From a bacterium (GTDB lineage Bacteria > SM23-31 > JAUVVT01): 7,405 nucleotides of DNA. The stretch covers positions 1 to 7,405 of the forward strand of contig JAUWXV010000188.1 of assembly GCA_030616165.1 (NCBI GenBank), read 5' to 3'. Within the stretch, counting starts at the first letter, position 1, and every line of letters begins with the position of its first letter. Both the position numbers and the translations under genes were made by a program. Below, piece after piece: positions 4,832-6,236 of this stretch. The notes under the pieces were generated by a model, which did not search any database, had not been told where the DNA came from, and was given only the letters and a program-made list of their open reading frames with translations.

Positions 4832-4860
4832 TTGACTTTTATTTCAAAAGGTATTATACT
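4832..4860 (+). promoter_or_regulatory. Sigma70-type promoter for the solenoid gene-thiL unit
   Basis: TTGACT (4832-4837) and TATACT (4855-4860) each match consensus at five of six positions and are separated by the ideal 17 bases. It is the best promoter in the window and begins eight bases after the lepA stop codon. Transcription would start near 4867, giving an unusually long leader of about 205 bases before the next start codon at 5073. Confidence 0.7.
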
Positions 4861-4989: not shown

Positions 4990-5021
4990 AATGTAGGGGT
5001 TCGATTTATCGAACCCAATTT
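4990..5021 (+). repeat. Palindromic repeat, copy 2
   Basis: GGGTTCGA (4997-5004) and TCGAACCC (5009-5016) form a perfect eight-base-pair stem with a TTTA loop, preceded by AATGTAG and followed by AATTT. A diverged copy in inverted orientation lies at 2991-3021. The TGTAGGGG...CCC layout resembles a class of short dispersed palindromes that I remember from many environmental bacterial genomes; this is unverified. The stem is not followed by a T-run on either strand, so a terminator role is unlikely. It lies 51 bases before the solenoid gene start. Confidence 0.75.
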
Positions 5022-5072
5022 AATGGTCATTATGAATATTGTTAAAAAATAAATAATTAAAGGGCCGTAAAG

Positions 5073-6236
5073 TTGTTATACAAGGATATATTAAGGCAGA
5101 GGGTAGAGGCGAGTCAGGATAATATGGTAAAAGCCAGGTACTATAAGTCAATCGGGGACATAAATACCGCAAGGAAATGGGCTTCGGATGAATTCATAAA
5201 AAGAATGAACAGCGGTTATTACAATTCTGCAGTTAGAATAAAGAGAGAATATGAATTACCTCTCGATATGATTCGAAACTCTGTTGAAAGGGGATATAAT
5301 CTTAATATAGAGAAAGGGCATTATGAAACAGCGGCAAGGATTGGAAAGGAATATGGACTGCCAGAATCGAGGTTTGTTGAATCTGCGGTTATGGCATTTA
5401 ATAAATATCTTTCGAGAGAACAATACCAGAAGGCTTGGGAGATAGAGGAAGAATTCAAAATCCCTATTTCCAGGGTTCAGGAACAGATTTTTGAGTCGTA
5501 TGAATTGAATTTATCAAAAGAGAGATTTGAAATGGCTGCCCGGATAGCAGCGGAGTATCGTTTGCCGAGAAAATACGTAATATCTGCGGCAGAAAAAGCA
5601 TTAAAGAAAGATATTGCCAATAACCGATTCGAAAAAACAATAAATTTAGCATCAGAACTAAAACTTGATAAGAAAATTATCAGAAGAATAGCTGCAGAGG
5701 AATTTAAAGTGCGGTATCATAAAGGACTTTATGAACAGGCAAGATTTATTATGGATACGTTCAAAGTACCTTTGAAAATGATTCAGGATGCAGTTGTTAA
5801 GGTCTTTAATCTTCACATGGAAAAAAATCTCTATGGTGAAGCGAGTGTTATTGCTCAGGAATATAAACTTCGTAAAAAAAGAACTAAAAAAGCTGCTCTG
5901 AAATCTTTTGAATTTCTTATTCAAAAAGATGAATTAGAAAATGCCGAAAAGATAAGGAAGTTATATGAACTATCTAAAAGAGATGTAAAAGGTATTGTTG
6001 CAAGGGATTTTACCAAAAGGCTTGAAAATGAAGATTACCCCGGCGCTCTTATAATGAAAAGGGAATATAAACTCTCAAGAAAAATGACCGTTGCTCCAGC
6101 AAGAAAGATTTATAATATTTTAAATCAAGCCGGTTATATTAAGTTGGCAAATGATTTAAAGATGGAATATTTGGGTGGGGATGGAAATCTTGTGAAAAGG
6201 TATATTAAAAAATTATATAAAATTATCTCAAGTTGA
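5073..6236 (+). CDS. Uncharacterised alpha-solenoid protein with ten exact 34-residue repeats
   Basis: 387 residues, not recognised as a named family. From about residue 39 the protein is a tandem array with an exact 34-residue period. The E-Y-x-L-P signature starts at residues 59, 93, 127, 161, 195, 229, 263, 297, 331 and 365 (degenerate in units 5, 6, 8 and 10). An aromatic or Leu recurs at 50, 84, 118 and so on, Ala at 53, 87, 121 and so on (nine of ten), and Ile/Leu/Met at 56, 90, 124 and so on. This pattern implies two helices per unit, as in TPR-like solenoids, though the TPR Trp/Gly positions are absent. It is rich in Lys, Arg and Glu, with no signal peptide or membrane segment, so a cytoplasmic binding scaffold is inferred. 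The start is TTG with AAGGG eight bases upstream; an in-frame stop lies just before, and the next Met is residue 18. It is probably co-transcribed with thiL. Confidence 0.85.
   Translation: MLYKDILRQRVEASQDNMVKARYYKSIGDINTARKWASDEFIKRMNSGYYNSAVRIKREYELPLDMIRNSVERGYNLNIEKGHYETAARIGKEYGLPESRFVESAVMAFNKYLSREQYQKAWEIEEEFKIPISRVQEQIFESYELNLSKERFEMAARIAAEYRLPRKYVISAAEKALKKDIANNRFEKTINLASELKLDKKIIRRIAAEEFKVRYHKGLYEQARFIMDTFKVPLKMIQDAVVKVFNLHMEKNLYGEASVIAQEYKLRKKRTKKAALKSFEFLIQKDELENAEKIRKLYELSKRDVKGIVARDFTKRLENEDYPGALIMKREYKLSRKMTVAPARKIYNILNQAGYIKLANDLKMEYLGGDGNLVKRYIKKLYKIISS

Follow-up and report, generated by a model that had tools for sequence, protein, structure and literature searches.

Which protein family does a 387-residue bacterial protein belong to when it consists of ten 34-residue units, shares its period with the TPR and lacks the residues by which TPRs are recognised? 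The question was raised by a first-pass annotation of a contig of 7,405 nucleotides (JAUWXV010000188.1, here called the window), which proposed a possibly undescribed solenoid family. The open reading frame occupies positions 5073–6236 of the forward strand, begins with a TTG start codon and was judged to be real; it aligns without frame breaks to orthologues in three other genomes, and its product has a pI of 9.7. Neither a signal peptide nor a membrane-spanning segment is visible in the sequence of the protein, which is probably cytoplasmic.

Upstream of the gene, a Shine-Dalgarno-like AAAGGG was read in the sequence at 5059–5064 (+), 8 nt before the TTG, and a consensus scan returned a sigma-70-like element, TTGACT-N17-TATACT, at 4832–4860 (+), directly 3′ of lepA. 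The nearest relative retains this promoter-like element behind lepA (TTGACATTTATT..AAAGATATTATACTT); we regard the element as a putative promoter, a match being in itself no proof of function. A perfect 8-bp hairpin (GGGTTCGA-TTTA-TCGAACCC) lies at 4997–5016, between lepA and the solenoid gene; it lacks a T-run, is absent from the nearest relative and is a candidate terminator or operator. No Rfam model matched in the window.

The ten units extend over positions 5160–6179 (+), as delimited by periodicity, structural model and unit alignment, and start every 102 nt, at 5160, 5262, 5364, 5466, 5568, 5670, 5772, 5874, 5976 and 6078. The signature recurs without insertion or deletion at residues 59, 93, 127, 161, 195, 229, 263, 297, 331 and 365, and fades in the last units (EYKLR, LYELS, EYKLS, EYLGG). 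The register described by the first-pass annotation is borne out by BLOSUM62 autocorrelation, with z values of 11.9, 12.6, 10.5 and 8.2 at lags 34, 68, 102 and 136, compared to a maximum over all lags of 4.7 in 2000 shuffles. The strong divergence of side chains that had been described is also real: the units are on average 22% identical (12–41%) at the protein level and 43% at the DNA level, and Tandem Repeats Finder reported no tandem repeat in the DNA, from which we conclude that the repeat is old. The phase of the conserved positions (alanine, aromatic and isoleucine in the original description) is kept at unit positions 24 (Ala), 12 and 31 (aromatic), and 4, 27 and 33 (Ile/Leu). Among 263 family units, which yield the consensus KEKIKEAALKAFEKLLKKGKYEKAAKIKKEFKLP, Ala24 occurs in 88%, Phe/Tyr31 in 94%, Leu/Ile33 in 87% and Ile/Leu27 in 80%.

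Orthologous units resemble each other in place (67, 46 and 41% identical) far more than out of place (22%), indicating that the array had acquired its ten units before the lineages diverged; both the age of the array and its fixed unit order are thus evident from the alignments. Unit position 15 and several positions of helix B are conserved among orthologues and differ between units, a pattern as would be expected of partner-specific contacts, although position 15 gives only a modest specificity signal, with z near 1.6 for two groups and 0 for the third. The array is preceded by a conserved N-terminal cap outside the ten units (residues 1–29, positions 5073–5159, +), carrying the motif DN[LM]xKA..Y...GD, in which D16, N17, K20, A21, G28 and D29 are invariant across six homologues.

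An AlphaFold2 model of the protein, built from six aligned homologues, reaches a mean pLDDT of 89 and shows a regular solenoid of two-helix units, the kind of structure that the first-pass annotation had anticipated. The cap contributes helices at residues 2–13 and 17–26, and in the AlphaFold2 models each unit comprises a long helix of 17–18 residues and a short helix of 10–12, mostly 10–11, residues. An equal long-short pattern was predicted for a distant paralogue of 541 residues (AlphaFold2 with nine sequences, pLDDT 91), which in addition carries a detached C-terminal helix at 526–538. Fold searches against the PDB and viral structures gave no confident global match. The best Foldseek result against solved structures had an E-value of 1.8e-4 with a TM of 0.12; the best VIA match reached Z 8.7 at an rmsd of 16.6 Å, and another Z 8.6 over 121 residues at 5.1 Å. 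The matches were weak and partial, and concerned TPR, coat, IFT, Gemin5, nuclear-pore and designed repeat solenoids. Get4 and other particular solenoids were not among the listed fold matches, an absence that excludes nothing.

Searches by sequence support the conclusion that the family is undescribed by the Pfam, NCBIfam and PADLOC libraries, none of which placed a family above its cut-off on any natural repeat region. The natural protein matched no solved structure in the PDB by sequence, and the PDB sequences matched by an artificial consensus were limited to consensus TPRs and a designed repeat protein. A literature search, conducted mainly outside subscription journals, found no named repeat of this kind. 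No strong full-length match to a TPR, PPR, Sel1 or HAT family was obtained, so that the first-pass suggestion of an undescribed solenoid stands as far as these libraries and the PDB sequences are concerned.

The closest known repeat to be considered is the TPR, in which residue classes are conserved at positions 4, 7, 8, 11, 20, 24, 27 and 32. Like the TPR, the family repeats a 34-residue antiparallel helix pair in tandem and stacks it into a solenoid, and its inter-helix turn G-x-(Y/F)-x-x-A lines up with G15-x-Y17-x-x-A20 of the TPR. The sole profile-profile signal, obtained with hhalign between the family and the TPRs of the host, is anchored on this same turn region (score 20.3 and probability 40%, where controls that were shuffled or reversed did not score above 13 and family against family gave 99.5%), and sub-threshold Pfam matches include TPR_19, TPR_1, ANAPC3 and TPR_ELP1, besides Clathrin_H_link. 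On the other hand, the small residues 8 and 27 of the TPR are Phe/Tyr in the family, W4 and L7 are lost, and the family unit closes with (E)(F/Y)x(L/I)P. Scored for the eight TPR classes, the 263 units reach 3.06 of 8 in their best register, compared to 8 of 8 for a consensus TPR, and no register brings classes 8, 20 and 27 together in more than 11% of units; the absence of a TPR signature noted at first pass is therefore corroborated. TPR_16 gave 76 matches elsewhere in the host genome and none at family genes, and no TPR model rose above its cut-off in any family member scanned. Helix lengths also differ, being 17–18 and 10 residues in the family rather than about 13 each as in the TPR (PMC8160929). 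The family may descend remotely from the TPR superfamily. That the protein is simply a divergent TPR protein with the usual protein-protein role has a fair way to go to an even chance, and is to be taken as a question of classification, compatible with the explanation preferred below.

A protein search and a profile search each detected the family in all six genomes of the phylum that were examined (all from one class), the former usually in several copies per genome. The protein search found no relative in 35 genomes outside the phylum, a two-unit profile had no match outside it, and among 386 genomes the profile search returned a single outside match in the 380 other bacteria, a weak look-alike. 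This is a 240-residue open reading frame (L044 in G062; E 7e-9) with three look-alike hairpins, which was rejected as a family member in view of its hairpin spacing of about 76 residues and probably arose independently. When about 85,000 species genomes were scanned for the N-terminal motif, only three metagenome-assembled genomes matched, with the record titles CSMAG_1171, candidate division KSB1 B21_G16 and PL23a_bin.125. No relative was found in viral contigs, and there is accordingly no sign of a phage origin.

The host genome carries about nine loci (ten contig matches, two of which look like the ends of one gene split between contigs). In the tree the proteins fall into the window type (four genomes), a sister 387-residue type, a 525-residue type and a 540-residue type, and the grouping indicates that the paralogues form ancient orthologue groups spanning genomes. 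The pI is 9.5–9.75 (net charge +23 to +29) throughout the 387-residue group, 9.1–9.4 in the 525-residue orthologues and from 4.9 to 9.2 in the 540-residue group. The window type is found after lepA and before thiL in two genomes, the host and its nearest genus. The linkage to thiL that the first-pass annotation had singled out thus extends, together with lepA, to the nearest genus and no further, the two more distant window-type orthologues having a rhomboid protease gene downstream; since its conservation is confined to a single family within the phylum, it was dropped as a functional clue.

We propose that the protein belongs to a family of TPR-like alpha-solenoids, unnamed and restricted to one lineage, and that it acts as a scaffold or adaptor tethered to a membrane or another acidic surface, with a partner of its own for each paralogue, an explanation that we consider about evenly poised between right and wrong. 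Stacking of the hairpins would create a curved face to which a partner macromolecule may bind through unit-specific residues, and each paralogue would be dedicated to a different partner. The tether may be provided by a basic amphipathic C-terminal helix, for which the candidate is the tail at residues 370–387 (positions 6180–6233, +), delimited by hydrophobic moment, pLDDT and the tails of paralogues. Its segment KRYIKKLYKII has a larger hydrophobic moment than every 11-mer of the protein body; the tail lies outside the ten units and is poorly ordered in the AlphaFold2 model (pLDDT 43–48). Paralogues end in comparable tails, and the last 20 residues combine a hydrophobic character with a net basic charge in 69% of family members compared to 23% of 109 neighbouring proteins, a difference to be read as a trend only, since the sequences are related and the p-value is not independent. 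The scaffold role is suggested because a fusion to a cyclase and an adjacency to PilZ proteins, described below, resemble the behaviour of interaction modules; against it stand the neighbourhood of the window gene, which changes between families of the phylum, the modest specificity signal, and the fact that the two structural models draw on six and nine sequences.

A different function would follow if the basic surface of the 387- and 525-residue types bound RNA, tRNA or the ribosome in the manner of PPR proteins, a role that we regard as unlikely. The high pI is kept in the 387-residue group and in the 525-residue orthologues, lepA precedes the window type in two genomes, and the 525-residue type follows gatA-gatB in four (L048, L056, L061, L066), with threonine synthase in between in two of these (L061, by model; L066, read from the sequence). 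The comparison with PPRs extends to two-helix units and a basic protein, and weak fold matches include helical-repeat RNA binders, namely a designed cPPR, PPR10 and Gemin5. However, the lepA linkage goes no further than the nearest genus, and a housekeeping gene as neighbour counts for little as evidence in any case. The family unit has 34 instead of 35 residues, no Pfam PPR model matched, and the proteins come from a bacterial lineage with no organellar context. In PPRs the bases are read by residues 5 and 35 of the repeat (PMC11514114), and no such two-residue code is visible in the family.

The solenoids may alternatively be sensors or adaptors in nucleotide second-messenger signalling, where they would control cyclases and c-di-GMP (PilZ) effectors; we think this improbable as well. 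In its favour is a gene of the host (L072, G000 contig 280, 4061–5184) in which an N-terminal class III nucleotide cyclase domain (Guanylate_cyc, E 1.8e-13) is followed by four to five units before the contig end cuts the gene. The 540-residue paralogue moreover precedes YcgR/PilZ-type proteins in two genomes (G000 and G004): at one locus of the host (L049, 4562–8717) the paralogue, a Get3/ArsA-type ATPase and a YcgR/PilZ protein stand in one row, and at locus L063 the solenoid and PilZ genes adjoin without the ATPase. Yet units are present at only one of the eight cyclase loci found, the window protein has no signalling neighbour, and other paralogues adjoin unrelated genes. A further cyclase of the host (L073, G000 contig 72) carries an N-terminal helix-turn-helix-like region and no units; in its catalytic domain it closely resembles the solenoid fusion.

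Returning to the scaffold explanation, its most far-reaching form would be a new helical-repeat family, defined by a hairpin of unequal helices, one long and one short, and by an F/Y-x-L-P junction between repeats, that originated and radiated within one uncultured phylum into about nine dedicated paralogues per genome which jointly make up a lineage-specific, membrane-tethered scaffold or coat system; as a whole we hold this to be quite unlikely. If the family assignment is right, the repeat is of a type not represented in Pfam, NCBIfam or PADLOC, and the genes would constitute a multi-copy, ancient and lineage-defining family of uncultured bacteria. The finding alone settles no long-standing question; the consensus unit is regular enough for an annotating profile and for a trial as a repeat-protein scaffold.

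For a clathrin- or COP-like membrane coat, in which the paralogues would assemble into a lattice on the membrane via their tails, the starting point is that Clathrin_H_link (PF13838) is the best Pfam match of the unit, with an E-value of 0.0012 for the protein. The score on P0001 is 19.3 bits, below the gathering cut-off of 27.8 bits, and the match covers 18–28 residues of the unit; an artificial six-unit consensus reaches E 1.8e-15, a value inflated by repetition, and a single unit E 0.017. Across the genomes of the phylum PF13838 gave nothing over the cut-off, and control genomes behaved alike, so that the clathrin match was rejected as a sign of membership. Nup, COPI, Gemin5 and IFT solenoids are among the best VIA matches, amphipathic tails are widespread, and the family is multi-copy, recalling the coat-like proteins of the PVC superphylum, which are likewise bacterial, multi-copy alpha-solenoids with a suggested membrane link. 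In those proteins a beta-propeller must stand at the N-terminus, ahead of the solenoid (PMC2799638), and scans or models of the 387-, 525- and 540-residue types revealed no propeller domain. As all natural matches either stay below cut-off or cover only a part (Z no higher than 8.7, with rmsd frequently above 5), we consider a coat very unlikely. The strictly regular 34-residue units also set the family apart from the clathrin heavy-chain link and coat solenoids.

Finally, two weak and long members of the family (L053 and L060) follow hypD-hypE. HypE and the ThiL encoded in the window belong to one enzyme superfamily, which is probably a coincidence.
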